Of a stretch of DNA of 64,000 bases, positions 18,581 through 61,545 are shown in pieces. The translations under genes and the position numbers were made by a program. The stretch's first letter is position 1; each line of letters begins with the position of its first letter. This stretch comes from Gonatopus flavifemur (Eukaryota > Arthropoda > Insecta > Hymenoptera > Dryinidae): NCBI GenBank assembly GCA_018340375.1, contig JAFFJZ010000081.1, positions 186,001-250,000 on the forward strand, read 5' to 3'. The notes under the pieces are model-generated. The model was not told the origin of the DNA. It saw only the letters and a list, made by a program, of their open reading frames with translations, and did no database searches.

Positions 18581-20324
18581 CCCATGCAGAAAATGCCGAC
18601 TTCCAACCAACCATAACAATCGAATCAGTACTGGTACAACACTGATTCCCAGGGTTGGTTGCCAACGTTGTAACGTGGTTGAAGTAACAACCAGTACAAT
18701 GTTGTTGTAACGCCGATAGTCAATGCTGATTTGCCAACGTTGATTTAAAACTCGTTCAACGTTGTTCATTATGTGTGGTTTAATACGGCAAAATTTTGAA
18801 GAAATTATTATTCATGTTCTCGAATTGACTTCTTCACATGTTTTCGGATTATTCATTCGTTTCAAGAAACGATTCAAACTTCAGCAACATACGAACAGAT
18901 GTGTTATATTTTAGTTGTGTCGAGCTGCAAGTGAATAATTCAAGTTTTTTGCAATTCATTTTGAACATTTTCTTGACATATTTTTGATCAAATGAGTTCT
19001 TCATGACTCATATTTATTACAAAATTAATATGATCTCTGAGTTTTTGCCTAGAAGTACTGATGTAAGTATTTGAAGAAAATTCATTTCCACTGCATCAAC
19101 AAATTACGATTTTTTGATATGTTACAACAGCTATGACTGATTTACTAATTCATTTTGCACTTACTAACAGATTCTTTGATTGACCACACATTTCACAAAA
19201 ATAATTCATCCATTTTTTGATCACATAAATTTAACCTCACATCTGTCAACCGAACTGCAATTTTCACACAGGCTCAAAGATTATTATATTGAACCGACAG
19301 ATGATTGAATCGGATAAACACGTCACTCTAATTGATCTTTTCCAATGCATCGCGTAGGTACCGGTTTGACGGTGCAGAAAAATTGTTACTGATACTGAAT
19401 TTGAATAATTTGCAAGTCTAGTCTAGTCGGTGTAAGAACTCCGGTAACAGTTTCAACGAAAATATCTTCGTATAATATGTTATTGCTGTTATTTGAAAAT
19501 TTGTAACTCATCAGAATGATAAGAGAAACATTCTTAATAGTATAGTCGGAGAAGAATATTAAAAATTCATCAATAACAACGTGTTCAAAAATATTCCCGT
19601 TAGATCTGTTACCGGACTCCTCACACCGACTATACAATATTACTTCAATTTATGATGTCAGAATTCATAACTGGCGTACAGCTGTACTGGTCAAAGCGTC
19701 ATTCTCTCATTAGGGTTAGGATTTCTTGTGTCAGGTTCGATTCCGCGTGTAGGGCTATGAGATTTTCGCTATTGACCCCCACAGTTTGAACGCTTGTTAT
19801 CATTGAATATCTTCATTAAGATAATTTCCACCAGGGGGTTCGATTGCTGTGGAACGCGGTTCTAGCAACTGACATTGGAACATGTTCCCATACATCTATT
19901 ACACATACAGTACGAGATCGACATGGATTCCAATGATTTTTTTGTGAATTATTTGAAATATATTCTTGGCGCTTATTTTAGATGCCAATGTTCTTCAAGT
20001 TAGATGCGCGCACTCAATCTCAGAATATGGTTTTTCCGGTGTGGACATTAGCTGAAAATATGAAATTACTTTCATGAGCTATGCACAAAGGCTTAAATGG
20101 ATTACCATCACCGGTTGAAAATCAATTGTCAATGTTGGTATCCAATGAAAAACCAGTACTGATTCAGGGTTGATACTAACGTTGACCTAGTATTGGTGAA
20201 CAACGCCGTACCAGTGTTGATCAGCGTTATCATTCCGGGTTCATTCCAACGTCGTTTGCCAACAGTTGGCAGTTGGCAAATAACGTTATTCCAGTACTGG
20301 GTCGTTCGTCAATTTCTGCATGGG
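18581..20324. mobile_element. Long CCC-type TIR element with tRNA-like module, 1,744 bp
   Basis: TIR CCCATGCAGAAA at the left pairs with CCCATGCAGAAATTGACGAA from the right, between TT duplications (18,579-18,580; 20,325-20,326). The first and last 200-250 bp are filled with variants of CAGTACTGG, CAACGTTG and TTGCCAAC, short palindromes or half-palindromes, arranged irregularly in both orientations. The interior is AT-rich with no transposase, and holds a tRNA-like sequence at about 19,670-19,756. The ends resemble those of the element at 23,621-24,532 (CCCACGTAGAAATTGACGGA). Confidence 0.75.
19670..19756 (+). ncRNA. tRNA-like module (A and B boxes)
   Basis: The A-box-like ACAGCTGTACTGGTCAAAGC (19,676-19,696) resembles a tRNA D-arm. 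The B-box-like AGGTTCGATTCC follows at about 19,733. Spacing fits a class I or slightly extended tRNA. Stem pairing of the acceptor and anticodon arms is poor, so this is a tRNA-derived relic or internal Pol III promoter rather than a functional tRNA gene. It lies about 65% along the surrounding TIR element. Confidence 0.45.
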
Positions 20325-20665
20325 TTACTTCTCTCTGACACACATTCATTGATTATGGAGCATGGTAACTAGAGCAAATTCAAAATCGGCAAAAATCCAA
20401 CCGCGTGATTCCCCACTCCCAACGGCGAAAAGAAAACATTCCCTCTTTTAAATAAGAGCGATCCTGATGGAAAGCCAGAGTATACTTTCGGGAGTAATAC
20501 GGAGTTCACGCCTCGCACAAGCTTTTTCACAAAAACTCGGCTTACTAATTTGACCTTCGATTATTTTTCGCGTTCCGTACCGAGTGTGAATTACGCGCGA
20601 GTTCAACGTGCCATAGATTTGGACGGTTTACCCTTCCGACCGAAGTCTCGTTTGGTTGCTCTCAT

Positions 20666-20785
20666 CCCGCGTGGAACAATTCTCAAAATTATATATAATT
20701 TTCATATAATTATATAGAATTTTTATATAAACTATATTGAATTATATACAAATTATATTGAATTTTAAAAAATTTTCCACATGGG
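20666..20785. mobile_element. CCC-type MITE, 120 bp, AT target duplication
   Basis: The ends are CCCGCGTGGAA and TTCCACATGGG, flanked by AT on both sides (20,664-20,665; 20,786-20,787). The interior is made of AATTATATATAATT-like palindromes. Confidence 0.8.
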
Positions 20786-20787
20786 AT

Positions 20788-21780
20788 CTTATAATTTCTT
20801 AGCACTCGAAATTCTTATTTCGAGTTAGAATTAGTAGAGTCAGTGCGCGCTCTTGGTCCAGGGATTCCTCCTAACATCCTTCCCTCATCTTGGATCAAAC
20901 ATTTCCGAGAACCAACAACATCCTGCGAGCTGACCTGGAATCAGCTCATGCAGCATTAGCCGCATAATAGTGAGTAACTACCGAATTCAATATACATTTT
21001 GAACACACATACAGATACACATACTTTCTCCCATCAGAAACTATCTCGATGTCACTGTTAAAAATCTTGTAATTAAAAAGTCATTGTATCTGTAATTCCA
21101 TTCTATTCGAATCGTTCCATTGTGATATCTTTCATTTTTTCTTCTCTCTCTTCCTCTTTCCAAGAGAAATAAATATCAATGCGAATAACACTCGCAGTAA
21201 AAACTAAAGGTCAACCCATTAGTTTATTTCTCTTCCCTCCTTCATCATTAAAACGCAATCGTTGAACATATCTACGGGTGCCGCCTTGGAATTTGGAGTT
21301 CCTCGGCAAGCTTAGAACGTGAGCAGACCCACACATTCGATTCGGTCTAGCCGCTCGGGCCGTTTCGAACAATAAATAATTTGTGACGAAGTGATATGAA
21401 CTGCACTTGCCATTTGTCACTTCGTAACACCATAGAACTGTACGTCGTCTACCACCATTATCAATTTCATAACAGGCGGTCTTGTGGAAAATTTGTATTG
21501 AATGGATGATTTACAGATTACAAAGTGGATTCTATTGATGATGAATGGCATGGAATGGATGATTGAAGATTATGCAACGAATCAATAACTGAATCATCAC
21601 TTATAATCATAAGTATTATAAATGGAATTTATCAAAAAACCCCAATGCAATATAAAAAGTTTTTAGAAAGTGAAGTTCATGACGAAACCTCAAAGAGATG
21701 TTAATAGTTCGACCAACGGTAGAAATTGAAGTTGGTCTCCAGTTACTTTAGTTACATCAAAGTATATCAAAGTGATTTTT
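20788..21780. other. Intergenic with a G/C-richer patch
   Basis: The 20,830-20,960 and 21,220-21,430 patches are less AT-rich than their surroundings and could contain conserved non-coding sequence or an exon, but no protein family or splice pair is recognised. Downstream sequence (21,480-21,780) grades into the satellite family. Confidence 0.35.
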
Positions 21781-22890
21781 TCAAAGGCGAAAACGCAGTA
21801 GATATGCCACGGATTCTTACAACCTGCTGGGCTCATCAGTTCCTCGGGATAGAATCATAGGTGGCTGGAGACGAAGCAGAAATGGAGCAGGCGTATCACA
21901 AATTTGTATGCTAGCTATCGTCACTATCAATCTCATTCGGTGACCTCATACTCGAACGAGGAAGAGGCAAAAGCGCCTGTACAGATCTATCCGATGCTGG
22001 TATCAGATTCTTTGCTTAGTGTTTTAGGGGGATAAGAAAGAAACGAAATGAAGGGAATATACCATAGATCTGTGAGTTTGCTACCACCACTATCAATTCG
22101 CATTACAGATTACAAAGTGGGTTCAATTGATAAACCCATATAACAGGAAAAGCTTCTGAAATGCATTTTTCAATCAGAAAAGTATTTTGAATCCTTTTTC
22201 GACCGACAGAAATGTTTTTTGAATGCATGTGGTACATTCCAAATGTATTTGTAATACATCAAATATGAATTTTGTATATATTTTAAATACTTCTGTTTGA
22301 ATGTATTTGAAAAGTGTTTTCTGTTTTATGGGAAGAATCCCCCGATTCTTTGAGTAGAATTACAGGTGGATGCAGGAAAAACAGGCGGATGCAGATATAT
22401 CATACATCTGTATATCATGTACCAGCAGGATCAATATCAATAGGTAGCGTCGTAAGAAAATGAAAAGACAGGAGCGTAGTGGATATTCAACAAGTCACTG
22501 CATCAGTTATACTACTATCAGATTCTCCCAATAGAATCACTGGTGGAAGAAGAAAGAGCAAGAAGGATACAGGTGTGCCATACATCTATATATTATATAC
22601 CAGCATGATCGATCATCAATCAATCATTATGTACCGTCAAAGGAAAATAAAGAAAAGGCGGGAGCGCAGAGGATATACAACAGGTTCTTGCGTCGAGTAT
22701 ACTACTATGAGATTCTTTCAATAAAATCACTGGTAGATGAAGAAAAAGCAAGAAGGACGCAGATGTACTATACATCTGTACGCCACTTACCATCATGATC
22801 ATTAGGTAGCGTTGGAAGAAAATGAAGAGAAGACAAAAGCGCTGTGGATATAACACAAATTTCTGCATTAGATGCACTTGACTGACTGAT
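21781..22890. repeat. Satellite array, opposite orientation to that at 16-17.8 kb
   Basis: Tandem units are clearest at 22,459, 22,651 and 22,828, each beginning with a GAAAAGRCRRRAGCG-like phrase and running through TACTACTATCAGATTCT, AATCACTGGTGGA and ATACATCTRTA. Periods are 192 and 177 bp. Older copies lie at 21,790-22,050. The same unit occurs inverted at 15,840-17,830. Confidence 0.65.
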
Positions 22891-23620: not shown

Positions 23621-24532
23621 CCCACGTAGAAATTGACGGATGGTCCAGTACCGGCTCAATACAGACTGCCAGTGTGCAACCGTTGGCGGCCGGTATCGGT
23701 CGGACCACGGAATGATAACGCCAAATAACTCTGATCCGGTACCGTTTACCAACATCAATTCAGTACTGGAAATCAGTGTAGTTCCGACATTGAGAACTAA
23801 TACTACCAGTATTGATCGGTATTCAAGTATCAACGACTGTTACTCAACCGTTATTTGCGCTGTTGTAACTGGAAGGTTTTGAATGCATTATCAAAATTTC
23901 TGCACTAGGGGGAATTTAGAGTGAAATTTACTATTGAATCATAGGATGACCGCCAACGGTTGCAAAATAGCAGCCTGTATCAAGCCGGTATTGGACCATT
24001 TGTCAATTTCCACGTGCACTGAAAAAAAGGCTGGTAACAGTTATCAAATGATATTTTTGAATATGACCAATCAAATATTCGATAACATTAATCGAATATT
24101 CAATAATGTTCATAAATTATGTTTATAATTATCGAATATTCGATAGATATTATTGATATTCAATTAATGGTATCGAATATTTGATTGGTCATATTCAAGA
24201 ATATCATTTGATAACTGTGACCTGCCTTTTTCTCAGTGTGGCCAATCAAGTCTTCTCTCAAAGTATACAAGATATTTATTCACATTGGTTCGGTGCCGAA
24301 TCAACGTTGAAGGCCAACGCTTGCGTATTAAAATTGTGCCGTTGTTAATCCAACATTGGTGGAAAAGTGGTCAATAACGGTTAGTTCAAATATCGAACCC
24401 GTACCGATACGAACTTAAAATAAAGTCGGTTAAGTACCGATCCGCAATCGGCAGACAACCGTTGGGGGCCCATACCTTTGCAGTACCGATCCGTTCGTCA
24501 CCATCGGCTCAGTACCGGAATTTCTACGTGGG
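23621..24532. mobile_element. CCC-type TIR element with nested MITE, TT target duplication
   Basis: The ends CCCACGTAGAAATT are inverted at the two sides and flanked by TT (23,619-23,620; 24,533-24,534). Subterminal arrays contain CAGTACCGG, CAGTACTGG, CAACCGTTG and CGGTATCGG, a sister set to those of the 18,581-20,324 element. A CACTG-type palindrome (24,017-24,238) is inserted. Net length without it is about 690 bp. A weak A-box-like GTGGAAAAGTGGTCAATAAC (about 24,357) is followed closely by AGTTCAAATATC, possibly a shrunken tRNA-like module; I do not call it. Confidence 0.8.
24017..24238. mobile_element. CACTG-type MITE nested in the CCC element, 222 bp
   Basis: The ends are CACTGAAAAAAAGGC and GCCTTTTTCTCAGTG, flanked by TG on both sides (24,015-24,016; 24,239-24,240). 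It forms a near-complete hairpin with ATCAAATGATATT, GACCAATCAAATATTCGATA and matching complements. No coding capacity. Confidence 0.85.
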
Positions 24533-24534
24533 TT

Positions 24535-24790
24535 GTTTTGGAAAGCTCTCAATGCCAGTTACAAGAATATGCGATGAAAAATCCGATAATGGTCCGATTA
24601 AGATATCTCTGTTATTTTTGAGTTGAGAAAAAAATACTTCAGACATATTGTATATGGTGTTTAGGAGGCTATAGGATGATACCATTGGTATGACGTGCAG
24701 GTGACCTCCATTTTTTTCAATCGGACCATCATTGTATTTTTCATCGCATATTCTTGTAATTGGCCTTGAGAGCTTTCCAAAACAATATTA
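24535..24790. repeat. Inverted repeat, about 70-bp arms
   Basis: TTTTGGAAAGCTCTCAATGC and AGAATATGCGATGAAAAAT near 24,536-24,580 recur inverted at about 24,735-24,786. This is a MITE-like hairpin; the boundaries are unresolved because it abuts the CCC element. Confidence 0.6.
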
Positions 24791-24796
24791 TTATAC

Positions 24797-25363: not shown

Positions 25364-25365
25364 TA

Positions 25366-25941: not shown

Positions 25942-27343
25942 CCCAAGCAGCACCAGAATATACTATGAACGTTCTTCGAATATTCGAAAGATGTTCTATG
26001 CACATTCGACTGAGACCGTTCTATAGGTGCTATGTATATTCATCGAACGTATGTAACCGAATATACGACAGCACGTTGATTGAACGTCGATTGAATGTAT
26101 ATCGTAGATTTCGAATGTACTGTGTACGTTCTAAGTATATTTAAAACAGTCTCATTCGAATATTCTATGAACATTCATTTTATGTTCTTCGTATCTCATC
26201 CGTACATTCTACGAACGTTTCTACTTCGTATATACTTTGAAATTCTGTTCTCAGTAAAAAGTAAATCTTAATTCCATGATCGACTGATTTTCAGATGAGG
26301 CTCAAAATCAGCAATGTTACGATTTCAGCCGTAATATGGGATGAAAAACAGTTGTGGCCGTATTAAATTCAATTAAACCGGATAATATGCTGATTATCAG
26401 CAATGCATATCTTATAGGCAGCCATGTAGAGTTTGATGGATAATTCAGTAAAAAATATCTGAAAATAAGATTAGAATTCTTTCATTTTCAGTGTTACAAT
26501 TGTTTATACGTACACATATATATTTGCATATAATTAATGACAGTTTCAATTCAGTCAAATTATTTCAGGTTTTTTATTTATTATTCAAGGTGTCTAACAA
26601 ATTCGGTAGCAGTTTGTAATATCACTTTTGTAAAAGCTTGTTATTGGATTTTCCGCACTGTCAATGGATTTTTTATGTCGACACTTTCACTTCAACATTA
26701 CAACACAAATTGGAATTAATTCAAACTTTTGGGGGTATTCACATTTCCACTAATTCTCAGTTCCCGTGAAATGTTTTCCAAATTTATCTTCGACTCCACA
26801 CTACACATACCATCAAATTATACTATTATGAAATTATTTATCACATGCGTCGATCGAAACGGTACCGTGGCGAAGTGGTTAAACGCAAAGGACTAGGACA
26901 GGTTATTCCAGCAACAATGTGGGTTCGAATCTCCCGATGAGGGTTAAAGATGTTCAATCTTCAAAAACTACGATCATGATATAATTGAATAGTCAACAAG
27001 TGAAGTGAATAAATTCACACAACAGGGAACTTTCATTTTGCATTCTCCGAATAAACACAAACAACTTCCTCATCGTCGATAGGTAACGCTATGTTGAGAA
27101 GAACAAAACAAAAAACAATGGACGAACCCATTTATCAGGAATAATTCGCTTTGAATTTCAGTTCAAAATCAGTTTTGATTTCAGTTCAATAGGGATCAAT
27201 GTAAGCTGTATTCTTGTTTGAGTTTGAGAAGGTTTTCCAGTAGCTGACTTTAAGTCTAATGAGTCTTCTTTCGGCTGCATCCTAAATTCAGCTTATATTT
27301 TAACTGAAATCAAGTTTTTCTTTTCACCGTGTTGTTGCTTGGG
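25942..27343. mobile_element. Long CCC-type TIR element with tRNA-like module, 1,402 bp
   Basis: The left end CCCAAGCAGCACCAG pairs with the right end read inverted, CCCAAGCAACAACACGG. AT flanks both sides (25,940-25,941; 27,344-27,345). The left 280 bp is dense in GAACGTTC, GAATATTCG and TACTATGAACG palindromes; the right side has TTCAGTTCAAAATC-like repeats. A tRNA-like module lies at 26,861-26,950. No transposase. Short relatives with the same TIR lie at 46,189-46,409 and 40,171-40,276. Confidence 0.7.
26861..26950 (+). ncRNA. tRNA-like module, class II spacing
   Basis: The A-box GTGGCGAAGTGGTTAAACGC starts at 26,867 and resembles Ser/Leu tRNA D-arms. The B-box GGGTTCGAATCTC starts at 26,931. 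The 64-bp distance suits a tRNA with a long variable arm. Acceptor-stem pairing is not evident. It is about 69% along the enclosing TIR element. It could be a tRNA pseudogene, a SINE head or a retained Pol III promoter. Confidence 0.55.
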
Positions 27344-28485: not shown

Positions 28486-29621
28486 CCCAATAAACATGAA
28501 CATCTTCAAGATATCTTTAAGATATCTTTTGAAAGACATATCAAAAAACATCTTGGAAGTATCTTTTGAGAAACATCTTGAAGACATATCGAAAAGATAT
28601 CCAAAGGACTTGTTTTCGATATGTCTTGAAGATGTCTTTCAAAAGATATGTTTGAGATGTTTTGCCAAATGTATCTTCAAGATCAGCAGTTTTGAGGTTA
28701 TGAGTGCATATGGATAACACTTTAAATGTCTTTGTTCAGAATCAAATTGCAAAGGAGATGAATTCGTTCATGAATTAAAAGCTTGAATAATCCATGTAAA
28801 TACCAACAAATTCTGTGAAAAGTACCATTTTGTAACCTTGCAGTGCTAGCACTAAAAGTAACGAATCTCCAAGTCAAGATATTTTGCGAATTATCAAGCT
28901 TCTGACGCTGAATTTTATATACGGCCTTCGTGTATGGTGATTTTATCAAATTCTCATCCACATTTACTAATAAGTTGTTTTTCAATAACAGTGAGAAAAA
29001 AATAATCTGAAGGTATCTATGATATTCATTAGACACCAACGATCACTGGATCATGTACTTCAATATATCTCAACAAATTCATTCAACTGTTGAAGTTTTA
29101 AGCACAATCAACTCATCTTATAATAGTGTATGTAATAAACACCTTGATCAACAGATCACTTTTACTCTGAAAATATACACCGCTGACATTATATCTCACT
29201 ATGTCATATTGACAATTATGAGCACTGTCATCAAATTGTCCGTATGGCTCAGGTCATTGAAGCGTAGGTACGTCGTGGAATGTCCAGGTTCGAATCTCGG
29301 AGCTCCAAGAATCCGAAATGAAGTGAAAGTTGTAGGACTGAGAGGGGGATCAAAAGAAAAGAGAGCAGGAATAAGAAGAAAAAGAGGGGAGAATTTTTTT
29401 TATGCACGATTCTTCTTGAGATATTTTTAAGACTTGATCGAATGCGTCTAAAACATATCTTCCGCAAGACCTTTTCGAGATATCTTAAACTTGTCGAAAT
29501 CAGTCGCGTAAAACATCTCTTAGATTTCTAAAAGATATCTCCGAGACCTTTTTGCAAGACATCTTTCAAAATTGCGAGATATCTTTTAGATATCTAAGAG
29601 GTTTCTTTTTGTTTGATTGGG
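28486..29621. mobile_element. Long CCC-type TIR element with tRNA-like module, 1,136 bp
   Basis: The ends are CCCAATAAACATG and, inverted, CCCAATCAAACAAAAAG. Flanks are TG and TA (one mismatch). Both ends are arrays of AAGATATCTT, AAAGATATCT and GACATATC palindromes (28,500-28,690 and 29,415-29,605). A tRNA-like module sits at 29,241-29,308. It lies just upstream of the P450 pseudogene start. No transposase. Confidence 0.7.
29241..29308 (+). ncRNA. tRNA-like module
   Basis: The A-box-like ATGGCTCAGGTCATTGAAGC starts at about 29,244. The B-box AGGTTCGAATCTCGG starts at about 29,286. Spacing of about 42 bp matches a class I tRNA. Stems are poorly conserved. Position is about 70% along the TIR element. 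Likely a relic or Pol III promoter rather than a working tRNA. Confidence 0.5.
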
Positions 29622-39887: not shown

Positions 39888-39891
39888 TTAA

Positions 39892-40276: not shown

Positions 40277-41921
40277 TATGAATATTTTTTGAAAGTTAAT
40301 CCCATGATTGATTGAAAATCAGAAAATATGATTTGAAAATGTTTAATTTGTACATTCATTCTTTTTCAAGCAGTTTTTCTTTAACTATGTGTGATAAAAG
40401 GAATGGTAGTTATTTCATGTAGCCGAGAGTTCAATTACTGTGAGAATCAAACAATAAATACAGTGCACGAATGTTGATTTCTTCTCATTCAACAGCCTAA
40501 CAGTACCAATATGTTAAATCACATGTTAGAATGTGTTGCATCGATCTCTACAGTATCAATCCTTGGAAACCTCTTCAGATATAACAACCAAAGAATCGCA
40601 TAGCACTGAGAAAAAGGAATCATTCTAAGGAAGAATCTTCCATTGAAATTGTTGAGAAAAAAAATGAATGGAAAAAAGTCCACATTTGGAAATCACGTTA
40701 TCTAATTCCCAACAGATTATGGAATTTATTTATTTTACATTTATACACACTGAACTATAAGAAAATACAGCAGTTACGCCATTAGTTTCATTTAGTATAA
40801 ATTATGTAAGGAGTTTTATATTCCATCATGCAGTGTTGCGCTTTCTGAAATGTTTCATCGATACCCTCAGTACAAGTCTTACATACTTATGGCTTGACTC
40901 TTTCACCAATTGAACTGTATATCGTAAAATGAATAAATCGTTGAAAAAAGGATTATAAATTGAGATTTTTGAATTGAAAATAATGAAAAAAGAAAAAACA
41001 AATTTGTGAATCAGATGTTCTGATTTTCTGTGGATCATAAAATCAATTTCAAGTAGATTGATATTCACTAAATAACCAAATAAACATGTAGTAATTATTG
41101 CCATTAGTTTGAAGCTCAAAGAATGTGGTTTGAAAAACTATTTTAATTCCATTTACTTTTCCTCCAACTATTTGTGATAAGACAGATAGAATTGTCTTAT
41201 GGGACCAAGTGTAATGCAGGTTTGCAAGAATCAAGCGATGAGTATGTGAAACATGTACTAAATGCTCCAATGAAAAGTTCCACAAAGAATAACATTGAGT
41301 GATTCAACATGGAACAACTTATATAATTCATACCAGATCCAACTGATGCCATTAATTTCTGTATTATGTTATAGTTCAGTCAAAATCAGTGTTTGTGAGA
41401 TTGATGTTCTGATTTTTCAAGAACGAAAAAATAAATCATTTTCAAGATATTGATTTTCACTGAATTATAACGAAATACAGGAATGAATGCCATCAGTTTA
41501 ATTTGGTAAGAATTATATAGGCAGGGTTGTATATTGCATCATGTAGGGTTACGCTTTGTGAAATGTTTCATCGATACCCTCAGTACCAGTCTTACATACT
41601 TATGGCTTGATTCTTTCATCAATTGAACTTCTTGTTTTAGAAGACAAAACAATCTCTTTCATCACAAATAGTTGAAAAAAAGTACATGAAAAGGATAACA
41701 TATTATAGTTTCATAACACTTTGAAACAATATTTTCTGGTATTCAAGGAATCAAAAATCAATCTCAATAATATTGATTCTCACTAGAGCATAAGAAAATA
41801 CAGTCATTACTGCCATTAGTTTTATTGGATAAAAATTATATAGGCAGAGTTGTATATTGCATCATGTAGGGTTACGCTTTGTGAAATGTTTCATCGATAC
41901 CCTCAGTACAAGTCTTACATA

Positions 41922-43021
41922 CACTGTAAAAAAATTTCACCGGAAAATTCCAGTACATGTACTGGAAGTCATTAACCTGTACATGTACCGGAAAATTTCA
42001 GCACATTTGTACTGCAAAAATTCAGTGCAAACGTTATGGAATTTCCGCATCAAAACTGGAAATTTTCTGAGCCTCGGTACTGGAATTTTTCAGTACACGA
42101 GCTGGACTTTTCCAGGACATGTACTGGAAAATTAATGCTGAAAATATCCATGAAAATTGAAAAAAAATTGCTCACGCAAAGTGATTTTGCAGGGTCCTTG
42201 TGTTCCAAGATGATTGAGAAACTTTTGATCGTTCATTTGGATGGACAGAAACTCATGTCTACCTAACAGGATTTGAACCCACACTTTTCTACCTGCCTAC
42301 CAACTGAAACCTAAGACCTAACCGATGAGCTATAGCGCGACATGTTGGAAGGCCAGCTTGGGTTACTACATATGCTTCATATCTAGAACACAAGCGGATA
42401 AGTCTTGGAAAACCTCATATATCAATTTCATTGGCTACAATTACAATTATTATTCAAAATCTCAATCAGGAAATTTTTAATATAAAGACTTGAAATTTTT
42501 CCTGCCAGAAATGACGAAGTCAATAGAAGTGGAAAATTTCAGTGCAACAGTGATTAAATTCCGTTGCATAGCAACTGGAAAATTCCATCACACGACCTGA
42601 AAATTGCAGTTCAAAACCTGTATAATTCAATTGCATAGTAACTGAAAATTCCATCACAAAACCTGAGAATTGCAGTTAAAAACCTGTATAATTCCAGTAT
42701 ACCAACGATTAGGTTTTTTTTTCTAAATTCCAAATTTTTTCTCAAGTCCTTTTTGAGGGAATATTTTTTTTTGGTGCACAAGAACTATAAAATTGTAGTA
42801 CGAGCCGGTAAAATTTTCGCGAAATCATGGCAAAATTTCAGTACATCATCTCAAACTTGAAAATTCCAGTACAATGACTGAATTTTCAGTTATGCTTGGT
42901 AAATTTTCAGTAACGTAACAACAAAATCTCTGTACATGTACTGGAATATCCATATTCCAGTACTAGCACTGGAAATTTCCAGTCCAGTTGCACAGTAAAT
43001 TTCCAGTTTTTTTTTACAGTG
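41922..43021. mobile_element. Long CACTG-type TIR element with tRNA-like module, 1,100 bp
   Basis: The ends are CACTGTAAAAAAATTTCACC and a right end ACTGGAAA...TTTTTTTTTACAGTG. TA flanks both sides (41,920-41,921; 43,022-43,023). The intact empty site CTTACATACTTATGGCTTG at about 41,592 in the same palindrome confirms the borders. Subterminal arrays contain CAGTACATGTACTGG, GGAAATTTCC and TGGAATTTTTCAG. A minus-strand tRNA-like module lies at 42,260-42,345. No transposase. Confidence 0.88.
42260..42345 (-). ncRNA. tRNA-like module
   Basis: On the minus strand: A-box TATAGCTCATCGGTTAGGT (42,334-42,316) and B-box GGGTTCAAATCCT (42,280-42,268). These are close to consensus. The outer stem could pair weakly through CTACCTAACAGG-like sequence. 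Spacing of about 50 bp is tRNA-like. It is about 66% along the element read on its own strand. Confidence 0.6.
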
Positions 43022-43886
43022 TACTTATCGCTTGATTCTTTCATCAATTAAATGTACATCGTAGAAGACAAAACTATCTCTCTCATCAAAAATAGTTGGA
43101 TCAAAGTACATGAAACTATAGAAACGATATTCTTTTCATGTACTTTTTTTCAACTATTTGTGATGAGAGAGATGGTTATGTCTTCTACAACATAAAGTTC
43201 AATTGATGAAAGAATCAAGCGATAAGTATGTAAGACTTGTACTGAGGGTATCGATGAAACATTTCACAAAGCGTAACCCTACATGATGCAATATACAACT
43301 CTGCCTATATAATTTTTATCAAATAAAACTAATGGCAGTAATGACTGTATTTTCTTATGCTTTAGTGAGAATCAATATTATTGAGATTGATTTTTGATTC
43401 CTTGAATACCAGAAAATATTGTTTCAAAGTGTTATGAAACTATAATATGTTATCCTTTTCATGTACTTTTTTTCAACTATTTGTGATGAAAGAGATTGTT
43501 TTGTCTTCTAAAACAAAAAGTTCAATTGATGAAAGAATCAAGCGATAAGTATGTAAGACTGGTACTGAGGGTATCGATGAAACATTTCACAAAGCGTAAC
43601 CCTACATGATGCAATATACAACCCTGCCTATATAATTCTTACCAAATCAAACTGAGGGCATTCATTTCTGTATTTCGTTATAATTCAGTGAAAATCAATC
43701 TCTTGAAAATGATTTATTTTTTCGTTCTTGAAAAATCAGAACATCAATCTCACAAACACTGATTTTTACTAAACTATAACATAATACAGAAATTAATGGC
43801 ATCAATTGGATCTGGTAGAAATTATATAAGTTGTTCCATGTTAAATCACTCAATGTTATACTTTGTGAAACTTTTCATTGGAGCAC

Positions 43887-44023
43887 CCCGTACAGCACGC
43901 GGACATTTCTCCGTCGCCTCCACGTCGCCTCTCCGTTCTTTCCACCTTGTATCCACGTCTCCCTTCCTTCCACCTCGCCTCCACGGAGATGCGACGTGTA
44001 CATCGGTGGATGTGCTGTGTGGG
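43887..44023. mobile_element. CCC-type MITE, 137 bp, AC target duplication
   Basis: The ends are CCCGTACAGCACGCGGAC and, inverted, CCCACACAGCACATCCACC. AC on both sides (43,885-43,886; 44,024-44,025). The GC-rich interior consists of CTCCACGTCGCCTC-type repeats. The corresponding uninterrupted module is seen inverted at about 41,230-41,285. Same TIR family as 16,174-16,565. Confidence 0.85.
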
Positions 44024-44662
44024 ACTTATCACATGTTTGTATGTTTCACATACTCATCGCTTGTTCCTTGCCCTAATTAGACTTGGTCCCATAGGACACA
44101 GTTCTATCTCTTTTATTACAAATAGTTGACGACAAAGTGAATGGAAATAATGTCGTTTTTTAAACTACATTCTCTGAGTTTCAAACTAATCGCAGTAATT
44201 ACTACATGTTCATGTGGTTCAGTGAATACAAATCTACTTGAAATTGATTTTATGATCCACGAAAAATCAGAACATCTGATTCAGAAATTGGATGTTTTTC
44301 TCATCATTTTCAATTCGAAAATCTCAATGTATCATCCTTCCTTCAATCACTCATGCCACCGTCATGAGATTTTCTGATTGTCATATCCAGAGACGATTTT
44401 TGTTCCAATGGCAAAGAGGGTAACTTCACATTTTTAACATTTTTCTTACCGAATCCCACAATACATTTCATGTCACATTATAAATTAATTTGGCTCAAAT
44501 TGCATTGCACAACATGTAATTACTGTTGGTGCACTAAGTATTTGTTCATTAAAATAAATGATATTGAATTTGATTTTGCAACTCACCTTTACTTACCATT
44601 CATTGACCGTCATACAAAATAATGCAAGCCGATTCACTGCGCACCGATTCTGCCCATGTTTT

Positions 44663-47792: not shown

Positions 47793-48117
47793 GCGCAGAA
47801 GTGGGCTTACCACTCCTGGGTCAGTGCACGTGATTGTGTCGGTTACAGTTAATTTAAACGCAACAAAATGAAATAAAGTGTCGGTACGATAACCTTGATT
47901 CGTGATTCGTGTTGGTGAAATATTTTCGATGATCCGAGAGGAGTTGGAAAATCGTAAAATTTAAAGTTTAAGGGAAGAAGCTTCGAGGCTGAAACTCGAC
48001 ACCAGAGGAACCCGACAACAACTCCTGAACCGCATCGAGGAACACTACGGGACGCTGTCTGACCTTGATCCGTCCACTAAAGAGCGCATAATGGCAAACT
48101 AAGACGAGGATGACCCC
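47793..48117. other. Leader between 5' LTR and gag
   Basis: About 325 bp of untranslated sequence. The first 60 bp are comparatively GC-rich (GGGCTTACCACTCCTGGGTC region), as expected near a primer-binding or packaging region. Confidence 0.5.
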
Positions 48118-49766
48118 ATGAATGACTTCGAGAGGGACAACTCACACCAGCCTCTTCAACGGACCCCACAAGTGAATGACCAACACCCACGTGTGCCCGG
48201 GGTGCAAGGAAATTCAACGCACCAGGTCAACCAACAACTCCCTCATCTCACAAGAGCACCGGGGAATAATCAACCACCCCCAGTACATCTCAATCAACAC
48301 TTGGGTGTCGCGCAGCAGCTTGATTCCGCTAACTTTCAAAATGAAATGTTGGGGACATTCCAACTAATGTGTGCCACATTCCAGACGAGCTTACAAGCTA
48401 CGTTGGAGGAGTTCAAGAGAAAAGAGAACCGTACGGATCAAAGAGTTGTTATGGGTAATAATGCAGCGCATGTGGCAACGAACGTGCAAGGAGTCAGTCG
48501 ACCCAGCGTTGAGAGGTCCAACGATTCACCGGGATACAGCGTAAGGAGGTCTCGATCCCCAGGATCTTCAATCCCATCAAACCACGATATTCGTGTGCTG
48601 TCGTCACAAATTCCTGAATATAAAGGCTCTTCGTCGGAAAACATCCATAAGTGGCTGCAAAGAGTTTCTCTCTCGCAGAAACGTATCAAGTATCTGATGT
48701 TGCCGTATTATTAGCAGCAACAAGTAAACTGTCCGGTGACGCTAAGAAGTGGTACGACAGGCAACCGCCTGAGAACATCTTATCGTGGAATAAAGTGAAA
48801 TCTTTATTAATTGAATATTTCGACTTCGAAGTCCCGTTTAATGAAGCCATGGCCAAAGTTGAGGCACGCATCTGGCAGAAACACAAAGAGTCGTTTGACG
48901 AATACGTACATGAGAAGCTTGAGCCCATGGGACCTTTGGACTTGTCGGTGGCTAACCAAATCAACAACCTAGTCAAGGGTATCACTGATCCTTGGATCAA
49001 GACTTCTGCCTTGTCGGTGAGACACGAAACTTCACCGGCCTTCTTAAACCGAATGAGATGGATAGTTGGGTCTATGAAGACAAACTATAAGCCACCAACG
49101 GCGTACGTCAAAGGAGGGAAATCTCAAACTGTCAACGGTCAAACTAGGTGTAACAAGTGCGGTAGATCCAACCACGCGACGAAGGACTGCAGACTTACCG
49201 ATCCGCACTGCTATTTCTGCAAAAAGAGCGGACATCTCAAACCAGACTGCCCTAGCTGGAAGGCGCAAAATCAACGCAACACAGGATCATCTCCTTCGTC
49301 GTCGAACTCGCAGCGAGGCTTCAACAGACCGAACGCACAAACCATCGCTGCGGTATTTAATGATAGCGATAAGAGCAACATTATTGAAGTGAGTAGTCCG
49401 TACGTTACGGTTAGAAAATTAAATGGTAAGAATTGTAACCTTTGTATGCTGGTAGATACAGGAAGTCCGATCAGTATTCCAAAGTATTCGGTCTATGAAA
49501 ACGTTTTCGATTCGTCTCAACTTGTTTCGAATAACTCTGCAAAATTTTATTACGCAAATGACAGGCCGGTAAATGTTGTGGGGATTGTAGAAACGCGAGT
49601 TCAGATTCAAGAACTACCCGATACAGAATTGAAAGTGAGATTCCACGTCGTAAAAGACGATTCTTTGAAAACCGAGCTTCTCCTCGGTCGAAATGCTTTT
49701 GAAGATCCTAATTTCACTTTACAGTACAAGCTTAATCCGTCGGATACGGAAATTGTAAACAAATAG
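48118..49766 (+). pseudogene. gag plus protease of the Gypsy element
   Basis: The first frame starts MNDFERDNSHQPLQRTP at 48,118, with a Gln/Pro-rich and then Ser/Arg-rich N-terminal part. A capsid-like region follows, with the frame switching near 48,660. The second frame contains WYDRQPPENILSW and an Arg/Glu-rich helical stretch. Two CCHC zinc knuckles, CNKCGRSNHATKDC and CYFCKKSGHLKPDC, lie at about 49,149 and 49,209. A retropepsin motif LVDTGSP at about 49,450 is followed by LLLGRNA. A TAG at 49,764-49,766 separates this from pol in the same frame. Confidence 0.88.
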
Positions 49767-51380
49767 AGTGAGGATTCGTTCGAATCCAATATATTTGAAA
49801 TCGATTTTTTCGATGAATCAGATCAATATAGTTTCGATTTCAAGGACATACAAATCGATTTTGATGATCGTGCTGAAGAAATGCTAATTCAGACCATGGA
49901 AGAGGTCGCAGATACACGCGTGGATCTCGTAGAGGACAACTATCAAGTACGGGTTCATTTGGAAGATAATTTGCTTTTCGCATTTGCTCCCCGAAAGTTC
50001 GCTTACGCTGAAAGAATTCAGCTGAGGGGAATAACTGATGATCTCTCGAAAAGAGGAATAATTAAGCCAAGTGATTCTCCTTATTGCTCTAGAGTCGTGC
50101 CGGTCAAAAAGAAGAATGGGCAATTGCGCCACTGTGTAGACTTACGACCGTTAAACCACCGCGTTTTCGAACAAAAGTTTCCATTCCCCATAATCGAGGA
50201 ATTTTTAACCAGACTTTCGGGCAAAAAGGTATTATCTTTACTAGATATAAAAGATGGGTTTCATCAGATCCGAGTACACCCCGACGACATCAAATATTTC
50301 GCGTTCGCAACGCCGGACGGTCAATTCGAATATACACGACTACTGTTTGGATATTCTGAATCTCCAGCAGAATTTCAAAAACGAATAATTTCGATTCTTG
50401 AACCTTTACATCGTGGCGGCAAAGTTCTGGCATACATCGACGATATTCTCATAGCATCCTCAACAATCGGAGAAAATCTCGCAATTTTGAAAGAGATTTT
50501 ATTGATAATTAACAAACACGGTATTGAACTCAATATTGCAAAGTGTTCATTTTTGAAATCGAGTATTGAATATCTGGGGTACGTTATTTCTAGTCAGGTC
50601 ATAACCCTCAGTGATAGATATGTGGATTCTATTAAAAATTTCCCAGAACCTAAACCGGTGAAACACACGCAGAGTTTTCTTGGACTTACAAATTACTTTA
50701 GGAAATTGCTCCCTAAGTACTCTGAAAAGGCCTTTGCAAAACCTCCTCCAAAAAAATACGAAGTTCTATTTCGATAAGGATTGCCGCGAATCGTTCGAAT
50801 CTCTGAAACAAGCTCTTACTAGCTATCCTGTACTGAGGATTTACAATCCAAAGGCGCGTACTGAACTTCACACCGATGCAAGTTCGTTGGGCTTGGGCAG
50901 AATTCTCTCACAACTCCGAGAAGACGATAAATGGGCCCCTGTGGCATATTTTAGTCAAGCGACCAATCAAGCACAACGAAACTACCACAGCTTCGAACTA
51001 GAAATGCTTGCAATAGTTGAATCGGTTGAAAGATTTCACTTGTATTCATATGGGATATTATTTACCATAGTCACGGATTGTGATTCATTGGTACACGCCA
51101 TGAAGAAAACCAATATGAACCCAAAAATCGCTAGATGGACCTTGCTCTTGCAAAATTATGATTTTGATATCGTTCATCGCGATGGTCAGAAAATGAGTCA
51201 CGTAGATGCTTTGAGCAGACAAGTTCTTGTAATTGGCGCATTAACTCTGGAAGAGGAATCAATTTTTCGCCAACAATCGGACACAAAACTTAAAGAATTG
51301 TTAAATCGATTAGAATACGAAGATCATCGAAGAAAATTCGTTCTTAAAGATGGTCTAATTTATCGGAAATATGAAGATAG
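49767..51380 (+). pseudogene. Reverse transcriptase and RNase H of the Gypsy element
   Basis: The frame is open from the gag-protease TAG. RT motifs appear in order: VPVKKKNGQLRHCVDLRPLN, LLDIKDGFHQI (catalytic Asp), FGYSESPAEFQ where most relatives have FGLxNAPxxFQ, and YIDD at about 50,443. The frame shifts near 50,728-50,731 beside an A-rich run. RNase H follows with TELHTDASSLGLG, FELEMLAIV and TDCDSLVHAM. The domain ends VDALSRQ. Another shift near 51,381 leads to integrase. Confidence 0.9.
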
Positions 51381-52471
51381 TTGATGGCCAACAACATCAT
51401 TAGGATACATCACGACAACGTCGGACATTGCGGTTTCGATAAAACTTTTCAGGGCATTTGTAATACTTATTGGTTCCCAGCGATGCGTTCTAGAATCAAG
51501 GATTTCATCGAAAACTGTATAACTTGCTTGATGGCGAACTCATCTATACATAACAAGGAAGGGCAAATCCAATCAATAGAAATTGCTGAAAGACCCATGG
51601 AAATTATAAACATCAACCATTTCGGTCCCTTAGAAGAATCCGGGGATAGATACCGACACATTTTGGTACTAGTTGATTCGTTCACTAGGTTTACGTGACT
51701 GATGGCTACAAAAACTACGAACTCGGAAGAAGTTAGTGAGCATTTGCGTAATGTTTTTTCTATGTTCGGTAATCCCGATACGCTTATATCCGATCGTGGT
51801 ACAGCGTTTACATCATTTAAATTCGAAAACTTCTCAACGGAAAGAAATATAAGGCACCGAAAGGTTGCAACAGCTTCTCCGTGTGCCAACGGCATGGCTG
51901 AGAGAACAAATAGGTTTTTGAGAGCCACTCTTTCTAGAATGTGCGAAACGGTGAAGGATTGGGAAGATAAGTTGCCTGATGTTCAATATTATTTAAATAA
52001 CACTTTCCACAAAGGTATAGACAACACGTCGAGCAAGTCACTTGTGAAATACGATAAACGCAATCACGGAGATAAGGAACTCAAAGAATTTGTGACAAAA
52101 TTGATAAAAGAAAATATTTCTATCTTAGAGAATGATCAAGAGGAAGAACAGAGTGCGTTGGAAGCTACAAAGGAGATGAAAGAATATAATAAGAATTATT
52201 CGGTGAAATTCATAAAACACCTACGCGATATGGAGAAGGAAATTATGTGATGGTGAGGAAATTGGCCCAAAAAGGAGACAAGAGCCGCAAACCTAAACCT
52301 AAGTATAAAGGACCCTATATAATCCATAAAGTTTTGGGCAACAATCGATACGTTGTTGAAGATATTCCAGGCTTCAATCATAATCAGAAACCTTTTGATT
52401 CCATTCTCGCAGTCGATGAATTGAAGCCATGGATCAAAATTGTGGATAATAGTACAGAAGGTATTCAATAA
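51381..52471 (+). pseudogene. Integrase of the Gypsy element
   Basis: An HHCC zinc-binding region (HHDNVGHCG ... CITC) precedes the core. The first catalytic position reads NINHFGPL where H-x-D-H-x-GPL is usual, so the first Asp appears replaced by Asn. The second Asp (ISDRGTAFTS) and the Glu (NGMAERTNR) are present. A TGA at 51,696-51,698 replaces a Trp-like codon. A frameshift near 52,247 leads to the C-terminal part, with KYKGPYIIHKVLGNNRYVV typical of Gypsy integrase tails. The domain is therefore non-functional. Confidence 0.9.
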
Positions 52472-56820: not shown

Positions 56821-56989
56821 GTGAGTATAGTAATATTTTACTTGGGTTTGATTTTGCCATCGACTACGGGTTGAAATGATCCTGATTATTACTAGGGCAA
56901 CCAAAAATATGCTCTGAAAAATGTTCTCAACGCTTAAAATATGTGAGGCTTGGTTCGAAAATGTGCCTTTCAAATATGTAAATATCTCA

Positions 56990-57240
56990 CACTGTGAGAC
57001 ATGATCGGAATTTTCCTGTTTACAGTAACCGGGAGATTCCGATCATAGGATGGGAGACCTATTTCCGGCACGTGTGTATAAAATTTATAATACATTCAAT
57101 TGAAAATTCCAAACTTCATGGTATCTTGACCATCATTTGACAGTCAATTTTCTGTAAAATACGGAAATTTCCTAACCCACATATGCGTTAATTACTTCAC
57201 AATATGCATGTTAAGTTCTGTATAGAAATTTTTAACAGTG
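56990..57240. mobile_element. CACTG-type MITE, relative of the one in the LINE
   Basis: Ends CACTGTGAGACATGATC and TTTTTAACAGTG. It shares CGGAATTTTCCTG, AAAATTCCAAACTT and GCGTTAATTACTTCAC with the 11,015-11,265 copy and has the same length (251 bp). Flanks CA and AA do not match perfectly. Confidence 0.75.
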
Positions 57241-57818
57241 AATATTTTTTGAGGATGTTATAGAAATATCAGTGCAAAAGATGGATGAATATTGATGTTG
57301 CCGGAGATTGAATCGTTTATTGAAATGGATCAGTGATCGGATATCGAAGCTCAACTAGTCAACTACTGAAGCCCCAAAACTTTGCCTTCCGTTTTTGAGC
57401 GATGCTTTCAGTCTAAAGGAGGTAATATGAAAAGTTAAATAATGATCATCCATCAGATTGTGTGGATTTCAATTTTCGTTTCGTTCCTATAAACGATTCA
57501 AATTTCAGCAACATTGAATGTTATTGACTCATGTATAGAATTGAAATATAATTTTGAAGAACGTAAATCCTCACATGCATTTGATCAAGATGACACAATA
57601 ATGTTTTGAATATTCTGTGGATATGTGCAGAATATACTATGAATATTCGTATAATATTTTTCAACATTTGAAGGTTTTACGTATGTTTATGAAATTTTTT
57701 TGAACATTCTCAATGTTACGAAGAGAACAACAATTGCAAATACAGAAAATGAGGAATAATTGTGGTAGTCAATGTTGGGAGAATTCACCGAGAAATCACA
57801 TATAATTTCACCTTATAC
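57241..57818. other. Intergenic, no supported gene
   Basis: Possible location of later receptor exons, but none is recognised. GAATATTC-like motifs cluster at 57,605-57,660. Confidence 0.35.
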
Positions 57819-58170
57819 TAGAAATGGGCGATATGATATCGATATTCACCAGTATCCATATTTCATTTGTTGATGCGTCGATATTTGTATTCGATACTTT
57901 CGAATTCGATGTATCGGTGTCTCGATATGAAATACCTGAATGTCGAATATTTTTTTCAATTTTCTACCCGCCACTATACCGTTGATCCAGGAGATGCAAC
58001 TTCCAATTTCGAATGGGGAAAACTGTTGTTACGGATTCAGTTCATTTGAACATTCTTTAGTGTGAAGGTGCAATGATCGCGTCACGAAGTAAGATTTGAG
58101 GAGTATCATCTTATATGGCGTCGGCTTTTGGAAGTGGTAAATTTTTGGGGGTAGAATGACAAGTCAAATT

Positions 58171-60411
58171 GAGGTGCCGGGAAGAATAACTCGCTTAGCG
58201 CTCGGAACGCATCACAAATTTGATCCAAACGGTCCCGTCGGAGGTCGAAAAAAAAAGTCGGAATTTTGAAAATTAAAAAATACTAGGTCATAGAGCTTGA
58301 AAAAACAAGGCCAGTGTCCCCTTACTATTTTCTTCTAGGATCAATAGTTCCCGAAGAAAAAAAAAAACTACACATTTTTTCATACCGAAAATCAATGTTT
58401 TCCAACATTAAACTCGTTGGATCTCATTCATTTTTCGGCGAATCGGAATAAAACTTACAGTTTCTGATTTGTGAGACTTCACCGAAGACGACAATGTCGA
58501 AAAAATTTGTGAAAATTAATAATAAATTAATTAATTTTTCATTCGAAGTAAAAATCATGTGTTTTATGCTTTGCATTGAAAAAGTGTCGGGGGAAGTATG
58601 AGATACAAAAAACTTCCAGCGACAAAGTTGTTCGCTAAGGTATGGAAAAACTTTTTGGGAAGCTCCAGATCGATTGGATTATTGGTTTGCAAAATACAGG
58701 GATTTATTTGTTAGCGCGCAACGGAAATCTATCACGATTATGCGTCTTCACCGGCTGACTATCAGGGTCCGTAGGAAAGATTGTATTCACTCACTTTTTC
58801 AACTTGAGATGTGTTTTTGGGTCGGAGAATTCGAATATCCAACTATTTTCACGAGAATTCATTTCCTTTATCCATGTTTTTGTTATAAGAAATTTGATTG
58901 AAGTTACAGAAAGAATAACTCGCTTAGTGCTTGAAATCACGTGGAAGAGTGATCATATTGGGCAATAAAAACAAGTAGGTGGGAACAAGTAATTAAAAAT
59001 ATACATATTCAGATTCTTGTGAGTAAAACTTCCTATTTTGACACACATTTCTCAAGATGAAAAACATTCTCGGTATCAAATCAATAGTTTTGAAAACATA
59101 CCTCACGATTACTCAGTCGTTTGTTAGCGAAATCCAATGCTATTTTCAGGATGTGTGCTCAATAGTATATCAATTATCACCAACTACGAGATTTTGTGAG
59201 AAGCATAATGTGTTGAATTTTATTCAATCACAAATCAATGCTAATCGACAATTACGTTTCACGTACTTCGAAGAAAAGTATCAAAAGAATTTGTCCTACC
59301 ACTGTGAGAAATGTAACGAGGAGAATACTCGTAGTGCATGAGAATTCCGATCCTACGATGTTTCTCTAATTATTTTTACACTAGTGCTGCCGAAACAATT
59401 CGATTTTCATTTGTTTACAAACTGCTGGATTCAACGTTATTATCACGGTTGTCGTATTACATTAAATGTAATCGTGAGGTATGTTTTCCAAACTATTGAT
59501 TTGAGACCGAGAATGTTTTTCATCTTGAGAAGTATGTGTCAAAATAGGAAGTTTTACTTACAAGAATCTGAATATGTATATTTTTTATTACTTGTTCCCA
59601 CCTACTTGTTTTTATTGCCCAATATGATCACTCTTCTACGTGATTTCAAGCACTAAGCGAGTTATTCTTTCTGTAACTTCAATCAAATTTTTTATAACAA
59701 AAACATGGATGAAGGAAATGAAATCTCGTAAGAATAGTTGGATATTCGAATTCTCCGACCCAAAAAAACATCTAAAGTTGAAAGAGTGAGTGAATACAAT
59801 CTTTCCTACGGACCCTGATAGTCACCCGGTAAAAGACGCATAATCGTGATAGATTTCCGTTGCGCGCCAACAATCAATCCCTGTATTTTGCAAACTAATA
59901 ATCCAATCGATCTGGAACTTCCCAAAAAGTTTTTCCATACCTTAGCGAACAACTTTGTCGCTGGAAGTTTTTTGTATCTCATACTTCCCCCGACACTTTT
60001 TCAATGCAAAGCATAAAACACATGATTTTTACTTCGAATGAAAAATCAATTAATTTATTATTAATTTTTACCATTTTTTTCGATATTGTCGTCTTCGGTG
60101 GAGTCTCACAAATCAGAAACTGTAAGTTTTATTCCGATTCGCCGAAAAATGAATGAGATCCAACGAGTTTAATGTTGGAAAACATTGATTTTTGGTATGA
60201 AAAAATGTGTAGTTTTTATTTTTTTCCTCGGAAACTATTGATCGTAGAAGAAAATAGTAAGGGGACACTGGCCTTGTTTTTTCAAGCTCTATGACCTAGT
60301 ATTTTTTAATTTTCAAAATTCCGACTTTCTTTTTCGACTTCCGACGGGACCGTTTGGATCAAATTAGTGATGCGTTCCGAGCGCTAAGCGAGTTATTCTT
60401 CCCGGCACCTC
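58171..60411. mobile_element. Foldback element 3, about 940-bp arms
   Basis: Left arm 58,171-59,112 and right arm 59,468-60,411 are near-perfect inverted copies, separated by a 355-bp spacer. Ends GAGGTGCCGGGAAGAATAAC. The phrase AGAATAACTCGCTTAGYGCT occurs twice per arm (58,182 and 58,913 on the left). AATT lies on both sides but could be part of the TIR. The open frame across the left arm and spacer (59,057-59,341) encodes no recognised protein. No transposase. Confidence 0.9.
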
Positions 60412-60760
60412 AATTCTAACATTGATGACCCTGTAAACGTTAGTCTCGTATAGGAATTTGATGAAAATATCATGTCTCAGTTTATTTTCACTTCATGGTG
60501 TGAAATTGATCAATCGATCCCACATTCTCGTACATGACTAACGTTTACAGCGCCGTGAGGTGTTGGAATCTGACTTGTAATTTTCTTCCAAAAAACTGTG
60601 TCATGTCTGTTATATGCAGATGATATTTCTCATATTGTACCTTGTGGATTGCGCAGAGCTCTTCGAATGGAAATTCTCGTTGTATAGTCGGTCAATTCAG
60701 TACGAGGGTAACGGTCCCATGTCCCGAAAGTTCAATAGCCCGAAATTCATTGATTGGTCA

Positions 60761-61545
60761 CACTGTTAAAAATTGCTTGAAATTTCATGTACTTTTCATG
60801 CACATATGTGAATGAAAATTCAATTTTTGTGAACTGAAATAGGAGTCCAAATACATGTTATTGAATTCTCAAGTTATTGTGCATGAAAATTGAAATTAAT
60901 GTACAGGTGATTGGAAAAACTTAGAAAAATTTAATCCAGTATAATAACATAATAATATCATTATAATTATAATCAAATCATGGCTCTAATGGCATCCAAC
61001 TGAGAATAACAAAAATGATCCAAGTGTGTTTGGATTTGAAAAAAAATCTAAAAATGCTCATATCTCCAAAACTAATCTTCAAAAAAACGGAAAATTCTTG
61101 CATTATGGCTGCAGAATACGCCCTTGAAATACAATTTTTCTCACTATGGGTCACCCTGTATACTAACGCTTTGACGAAGTCATCCACGTATCCACTTCAA
61201 CTATGTACTAGTTAGATCACACGGTTTGTTCAGTGTTTCTACATTACAGGTACATCTTGATTCACAAGTTTGAAGAATGAACGCAAGGTCATATAAGCAG
61301 AAAAATGCTCCTTTCCACATAAGTGGCAGTGGCTTGAGTGACAGAGCTTTGGCGTCCGACTTCGACGTCCCGCGTTCAAATCTCGTGAAGGTGATTTTTT
61401 TTTCAACAATCATGAACATGTGCATGAAAGTTAAAGAACTTGTTATTGAATTTTCAAGTGCAGTGCGAATTATTTTTCAATTACGTGAGTGGAAGTTGCT
61501 TCCATTACATGTAATTGAAAATTCAATCAGAAATTTCTAACAGTG
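60761..61545. mobile_element. CACTG-type TIR element with tRNA-like module, 785 bp
   Basis: Ends CACTGTTAAAAATTGC and, inverted, CACTGTTAGAAATTTCTG. CA on both sides (60,759-60,760; 61,546-61,547). Subterminal motifs GAAATTTCATGTAC, TTCATGCACATATGTG and TTACATGTAATTGAAAATTC repeat. A tRNA-like module is at 61,325-61,392. Confidence 0.8.
61325..61392 (+). ncRNA. tRNA-like module
   Basis: The A-box-like GTGGCTTGAGTGACAGAGC starts at 61,329 and the B-box GCGTTCAAATCTCG at 61,372. The 43-44 bp spacing is exact for a class I tRNA. An imperfect anticodon stem (GCGTC ... GACGT) encloses a 7-base loop. A T-run follows at about 61,396, a possible Pol III terminator. It is about 76% along the TIR element. 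Confidence 0.55.

Follow-up and report, generated by a model that had tools for sequence, protein, structure and literature searches.

tRNA-derived short interspersed nuclear elements (SINEs) have a degenerate tRNA head with A and B boxes and a short predicted RNA polymerase III (Pol III) unit, and occur in many copies. Non-autonomous elements of the CMC-like (CACTA/Mirage/Chapaev) kind, both miniature inverted-repeat transposable elements (MITEs) and longer forms with CAC or CCC ends, have short terminal inverted repeats (TIRs), subterminal repeats, 2-bp target duplications, and many near-identical copies; to our knowledge, a Pol III promoter is no part of their description. Here, we analyze a 64,000-nucleotide stretch of the Gonatopus flavifemur genome (C384:186001-250000, hereafter the window), together with searches of the 636-Mb genome (402 contigs). 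Small DNA transposons of at least three families found there carry, roughly two thirds along their length, what their boxes indicate to be a tRNA-like Pol III promoter, and a few more families probably do so as well. An internal promoter of this kind is normally expected in SINEs, another class of jumping gene.

The units described below resemble SINEs in a putative degenerate tRNA head, a short predicted Pol III unit, and many copies. Unlike SINEs, they lie inside TIR elements with 2-bp duplications, and no retroposon tail was recognized. The closest described hybrid is MER6/MER6A, a Tc1/mariner MITE with a SINE V domain, whose similarity to the SINE leaves out the tRNA-related head (PMC6887750). 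It resembles the present elements in being a TIR element with SINE-derived sequence that spread as a DNA transposon. It differs in lacking the tRNA head, whereas several of the present families have just this part, the tRNA-like promoter. For DINE-1, the cited passage argues against a SINE from the absence of Pol III sites and of tRNA-like structure (PMC2374699). No TIR class with a tRNA promoter was named in the titles and abstract openings listed by searches of an open-licence library, subscription papers and repeat databases lying outside their range.

Six TIR elements with two end types

The sequence-only reading of the window had placed five TIR elements there, and TIR alignments and target duplications confirmed all five (E1 to E5, Table 1). 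The TIR alignment scores of E3 (61), E4 (53), and E5 (31) each exceeded all 50 shuffles, that of E1 (28) equaled the 95% shuffle level, and that of E2 (27) fell just below its own level of 28. Exact 2-bp target duplications flank E1, E2, E4, E5, and a sixth element, E6, which came from a 200-kb genome sample (20 pieces, each of 10 kb and starting at a round coordinate, on five contigs; 264 kb together with the window). The duplication of E3 is inexact in the window copy (TG/TA) and reads AT/AT, by eye, in its relative L043. The termini had been described as differing from element to element. This was half right: the families differ in sequence but have two end types in common, CCCA... and CAC(T/A/G)GT..., all of the form C(A/C)C and mostly with 2-bp duplications.

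Genome-wide copy surveys covered four families, namely E3, E4, the short form of E2, and the inner element of E2 (E2i, see below), and found dispersed multiple copies of each. The elements have the hallmarks of non-autonomous TIR DNA transposons, namely TIRs, a short target duplication of fixed length, and, for these four families, dispersed copies. By their ends and duplication length, they are putatively CMC-like.

The arms of E3 (28486-28680 and 29447-29621) contain short repeats of the palindromic words AAGATATCTT and AAGACATCTT, spaced about every 11 bp by eye; E4 and E5 have comparable short palindromic subterminal repeats made of different words. The insertion site of E4 is a nested inverted repeat (40811-44308) with arms of up to 669 nt (97%) and, by eye, a GC-rich break near 43886-44030.

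Table 1 Elements, boxes, and T-runs (positions in the window, except for E6)
Feature	Position	Strand	Details
E1, TIR element	18581-20324	+	Ends CCCATGCAGAAA; target duplication TT
E1 A-box-like motif TGGTCAAAGCGTCA	19688-19701	+	At 0.63 of the element
E1 B box GGTTCGATTCC	19734-19744	+	18.8 bits; first T4 at 19763; first T5 or longer (T7) about 174 nt beyond
E2 outer, CCCAAGCAGC MITE	25942-27343	+	About 320 bp minus the insert; split by the inner element; target duplication AT
E2 inner (E2i), separate TIR family	26250-27331	+	1082 bp; flanked by TT here
E2i A box TGGCGAAGTGGTT	26868-26880	+	Exact in 10/10 close fetched cassettes and in L083
E2i B box GGTTCGAATCT	26922-26932	+	First T4 at 27036; longer T-run only far downstream
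E3, TIR element	28486-29621	+	Ends CCCAAT; subterminal repeats of AAGATATCTT type
E3 A box TGGCTCAGGTCATTG	29245-29259	+	From consensus scan
E3 B box GGTTCGAATCT	29287-29297	+	Window copy
E3 T8 run, terminator-like	29394-29401	+	T8 in L043, T6 in relative L036
E4, TIR element inside a larger repeat	41922-43021	-	Ends CACTGTAAAAAAA; target duplication TA
E4 A box TAGCTCATCGGTT	42320-42332	-	
E4 B box GGTTCAAATCC	42269-42279	-	
E4 T8 run	42160-42167	-	T4 or longer in 12/12 fetched copies
E5, TIR element	60761-61545	+	Ends CACTGTTA; target duplication CA
E5 weak A box TGGCTTGAGTG (by eye) and B box CGTTCAAATCT (at 61373)	61330-61383	+	T9 at 61395
E6, sixth family (200-kb sample)	L040:5918-7443		Target duplication TG; B box at 0.77

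The cassette is fixed in three families

For each surveyed family, only the best 40 candidates were scored (of 1237 for E3, 108 for E4, 685 for E2i, and 2738 for short E2), the window's own copy being among the 40 for E3, E4, and E2i. The A-box/B-box cassette was spanned in 40/40 scored places in each of these three families, and hence in 120/120 together, three of them window copies. With two further cases in the sample, this supports the proposal of a module that recurs in several TIR families.

All 20 fetched E3 copies contained TRGCTCAGGT, and 19 the core TTCGA. Their B box took the form GGTTCGAATCC in ten copies, GGTTCGAATCT in eight, and another form in two. We rejected the idea that the B box of the window copy is a decayed form, as 8/20 fetched copies share it; it may therefore mark a subfamily. 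The scored E4 copies were 90-100% identical. In 12 fetched copies of this family, mostly picked from the more diverged ones, TTCRAATC was present throughout, a T-run of four or more followed about 100 nt downstream in every copy, and the A box TAGCTCATCGGTTAGG was exact in six, slightly changed in five, and affected by a deletion in one. Both E2i boxes were exact in all ten close copies fetched.

In E2, the cassette is part of a second TIR element, which is inserted in the first and forms a family of its own. Among the loci matching the left end of E2, only the first 309 bases aligned in all 19 of the other loci fetched. These 19 loci, all outside the window, are MITEs of about 320 bp that share the ends of E2, with an exact 2-bp duplication in 15 of them (by eye) and no cassette in any. 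The long E2 is thus such a MITE plus a 1,082-bp insertion flanked by TT. A query with the E2 interior was spanned by all 40 scored places, which were 98-99% identical save for the window copy, and also gave one 74% match (L083). Elsewhere in the genome, the ends of this inner element read CACAGTAAAAAG and CTTTTTACCGTG in other copies; its 2-bp duplications match, by eye, in 6/7 copies with fetched flanks (two with an altered first base); in the remaining copy, no left end was located. The cassette lies at 0.57-0.62 of the inner element. The earlier suggestion that long forms carry the cassette and short forms lack it was therefore wrong for E2, where the difference is a nested insertion. One short E5-like element (L025:520-775, about 256 bp, ends by eye) also has no cassette. 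At G000:C24:7934988-7936012, a close E2i copy and the 74%-identical copy lie next to each other in opposite orientation.

Position and layout of the boxes

A similar relative position had been claimed for the five cassettes, and it extends to the sixth. Read on the tRNA strand, the B box lies at 0.66 (E1), 0.62 (E2i), 0.69-0.71 (E3), 0.67 (E4), 0.78 (E5), and 0.77 (E6) of the element; uniform placement would give a range this narrow (0.62-0.78) with p = 0.0008 for the six, and p = 0.002 for E1-E4. The spacing from A to B box is 42-64 nt over the six families, with E6 at 64. The A box used for E3 (29245) came from a consensus scan and that for E5 (61330) was placed by eye; the weight matrix described below chose 29255 and 61339.

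Counted from the assumed start, the first T4 falls at 77, 87, 99, 161, 177, and 180 nt in the six families. A run of T6 or longer is found in five of the six, at 77, 161, 177, 193, and 261 nt; measured from arbitrary positions, the median distance is 308 nt. The full type-2 Pol III layout, with an A box, a B box at 30-60 nt, and a T-run, is present in E3 and E4. The boxes, their spacing, and the T-runs would fit transcription by Pol III.

Box matches compared with chance expectation

Pairs of A and B boxes were scored with a weight matrix of base preferences, and expected numbers were taken from 10 second-order Markov simulations. The five cassettes are the window's five top pairs (E2 31.1, E1 24.1, E4 22.6, E5 17.0, and E3 16.4). 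At a score of at least 22, three pairs were observed against 0.3 expected, and at least 14 was reached by eight against 6.7; E3 and E5 are therefore not significant alone by pair score. The claim of one pair per element holds to the extent that E1, E2, and E4 stand out, but the pairs of E3 and E5 are within chance. In the 200-kb sample, 12 pairs were found at 18 against 4.7 expected. With a simple consensus scan, the loosest limit yielded 27 pairs where 24.3 were expected, and a stricter limit six where 1.4 were expected.

B boxes alone showed the same dependence on stringency. In the 264 kb there were 23 against 28 expected at 12 bits, eight against 2.4 at 16 bits or more, and three against 0.0 at 18 bits. 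Both the eight and the three include one true tRNA-Ser gene (L033:4000-4081, pair score 27.0). The other seven at 16 bits or more are those of E1, E2, E3, E4, and E6, a site at L036:5197, and one at window 49777 that lies within a retrotransposon frame. L036 is an E3 relative by homology whose own ends were not located, and with the tRNA gene and E6 it makes up the three such B boxes of the sample. Good B boxes had been called rare in the window; four of the eight in 264 kb are indeed in E1-E4, but the boxes of E5 are weak. No TIR element was found around two matches of 14.5-15.5 bits (L035:6790 and L036:8318).

For a mechanical test, a TIR element had to be 700-2000 bp long and to show an end motif, matching TIRs, and a 2-bp duplication; the elements so defined covered 5.1% of the 264 kb. 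Four of the eight B boxes at 16 bits fell inside them (binomial p = 0.0004), a number that 0/300 column-permuted decoys reached, and B boxes were concentrated in TIR elements from 14.5 to 16 bits. Four of the five distinct window elements found mechanically hold an A/B pair of at least 14. Plain chance for all five cassettes is unlikely in view of the pair scores of E1, E2, and E4 and the family of E3; E5 alone does no better than chance.

Relation to tRNA genes and among the families

Two simple origins were rejected: the cassettes are not tRNA genes, as those examined match no tRNA model at default thresholds, and they do not represent a single SINE family inserted into five elements, as they are unlike one another. 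Both boxes are found in the E2i, E3, and E4 families, and a B box in E1, while the boxes of E5 and E6 are weak; by these boxes, a tRNA-derived head as in a SINE is possible. The copied unit does not have the boundaries of a SINE and is bounded instead by TIRs and 2-bp duplications. The best description of the cassettes is that of putative remnants of a tRNA-like promoter, such as SINE heads contain, lying within cut-and-paste elements.

E3 aligned with its relative at a score of 111 against a shuffled maximum of 28. Slightly above shuffles were E1/E4 (30 against 29), E2/E3 (35 against 31), E4/E5 (39 against 34), and E5 with the E3 relative (37 against 29). Of 28 cassette alignments, seven of which involved the tRNA-Ser gene, six scored above every one of 100 shuffles, namely those of the E3 relative with E3 and with E1, those of E2/E3 and E2/E4, and those of the tRNA gene with E3 and with E4. 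When relaxed to 60% with introns allowed, ARAGORN called something in 5/6 cassettes, to which we gave no weight because there was no shuffled control.

A predicted Pol III promoter and competing explanations

We consider it probable that these are families of non-autonomous TIR transposons with a fixed internal, tRNA-derived type-2 Pol III promoter (A box, B box) followed by a T-run. TFIIIC would bind the boxes, and Pol III would produce a short RNA, untranslated and about 80-260 nt long, whose 3' end would fall before the right end of the element. With less assurance, we suggest that the cassette was kept amid divergence by occupancy with Pol III factors, which could provide open chromatin for the transposase, or by an RNA that aided spread, and that the families may owe their common layout to descent from a single long ancestor, or from a few, and not to six unrelated captures. 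A stronger form would recognize a TIR class defined by this promoter, held in place by selection across families otherwise unrecognizable in sequence, in which the promoter or its RNA is part of the life cycle, for instance through TFIIIC opening the element for the transposase. This stronger form is possible but doubtful.

If such promoters belong to whole cut-and-paste families, the rule that separates MITEs from SINEs by the absence of Pol III boxes fails, and annotation may misfile such elements. Many extra TFIIIC sites could then exist genome-wide (the three families gave 2,030 first-look candidates, of which 120 were scored), and it becomes testable whether the Pol III machinery can be of benefit to a DNA transposon.

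A number of results weigh against the promoter reading. The cassettes had been called tRNA-like, which stands for the promoter boxes but not for tRNA models: ARAGORN at default settings found no tRNA in the window and none in 36/37 loci given to it, the 37th containing the true tRNA-Ser gene, and Rfam at default thresholds accepted no cassette (window, E2i, E4, and L036), the best tRNA-clan score being 11.5 bits with an E-value of 7.6 (L036). Local alignment of whole elements in 21 pairs revealed no clear homology between families, 16 pairs not rising above shuffles. E1, E5, and E6 have poor A boxes, and E2i has T4 only and no T6. At a pair score of 22, the sample held two pairs against 1.3 expected, one being the true tRNA gene and the other (L030) lying in no recognized TIR element. 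In the mechanical test, whose end motifs were picked after the five elements were known, only 1/3 B boxes fell inside TIR elements at 17 bits (p = 0.14), as many as in 6/300 decoys. Among six long TIR pairs (700-2000 bp) in the sample, E6 had a cassette and five had none, so that the cassette is not a rule of long TIR pairs generally, although chance or nesting may account for part of this set. Because of these five pairs and the small pair excess at 22, we lowered the probability assigned to the selected class.

The boxes themselves give a divided picture. L083, which is 74% identical to E2i, matches it at 14/14 positions of the A box and 13/14 of the B box, compared with 32/40 in the intervening stretch and 224/320 in the flanks (boxes 27/28 against flanks, Fisher p = 0.0015). 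Set against this, E3 and L036 agree at 10/14 positions in the A box, 12/14 in the B box, and 22/28 between, with flanking blocks at 59-82%. Among recent copies, box differences were as frequent as those in the rest of the element in E3 (24/630 against 47/1417, p = 0.60), E4 (25/403 against 90/1679, p = 0.54), and E2i (0/341 against 2/569, p = 0.53), with no sign of selection. L083 is the only comparison that favors the boxes, and support for selection therefore consists of one comparison.

The chief rival holds that tRNA-derived SINEs inserted by chance in TIR elements and were multiplied as passengers by the transposase, their promoter unused. We regard this as rather unlikely, but it draws on several of the results above: the boxes drift with the rest among recent copies, most long TIR pairs of the sample have no cassette, and the order in E3 of boxes, a purine-rich stretch, and a T-run resembles a possible SINE body. 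MER6 is a described case of a SINE-in-MITE hybrid (PMC6887750). Harder to accommodate are the similar relative positions of six cassettes that differ from one another and the near-complete conservation of the boxes in L083; moreover, no free cassette copy was seen, in a search for free copies or SINE target duplications that was not exhaustive, the best 40 candidates having been scored.

The boxes may alternatively be binding sites for TFIIIC or an architectural protein, serving as insulator or targeting signals with no productive Pol III transcription. Sites of TFIIIC consisting of a box only are known, the B boxes here are more regular than the A boxes of E1, E5, and E6, and the tRNA fold is lost, all of which suit such a role. 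E2i, E3, and E4, however, have properly spaced A boxes, and T-runs follow downstream; a full transcription unit is therefore suggested, and we judge binding sites alone to be unlikely. Less probable still, and in our view very unlikely, is that B-box matches arose by chance in AT-rich long elements and were then copied with each family. The lack of excess at loose limits, the two sample pairs at 22, and the chance-level score of E5 are what this would predict, but it does not account for the excess at 16 and 18 bits (where the tRNA gene contributes one each), for the concentration of B boxes in TIR elements, or for E2i, whose A box is near the full consensus and whose pair score exceeds that of the tRNA-Ser gene.

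Other repeats in the window

The window holds a further nested pair, in which a CCCACGTAGAAATTGA element (23621-24532, target duplication TT) contains a CACTGA(A/G)AAAAAGGC element (24017-24238, target duplication TG); neither holds an A/B pair of at least 14. Large, near-perfect inverted repeats lie at 8317-9277 (arms 451 nt, 94%), 16174-16565 (190 nt, 89%), and 58167-60415 (214-366 nt, 94-97%). A retrotransposon at 48103-52250 gave Gag, zinc-knuckle, reverse transcriptase, RNase H, and integrase-like matches, some of them under the Pfam cut-off, and a separate reverse transcriptase fragment lies on the minus strand at 10305-11063.

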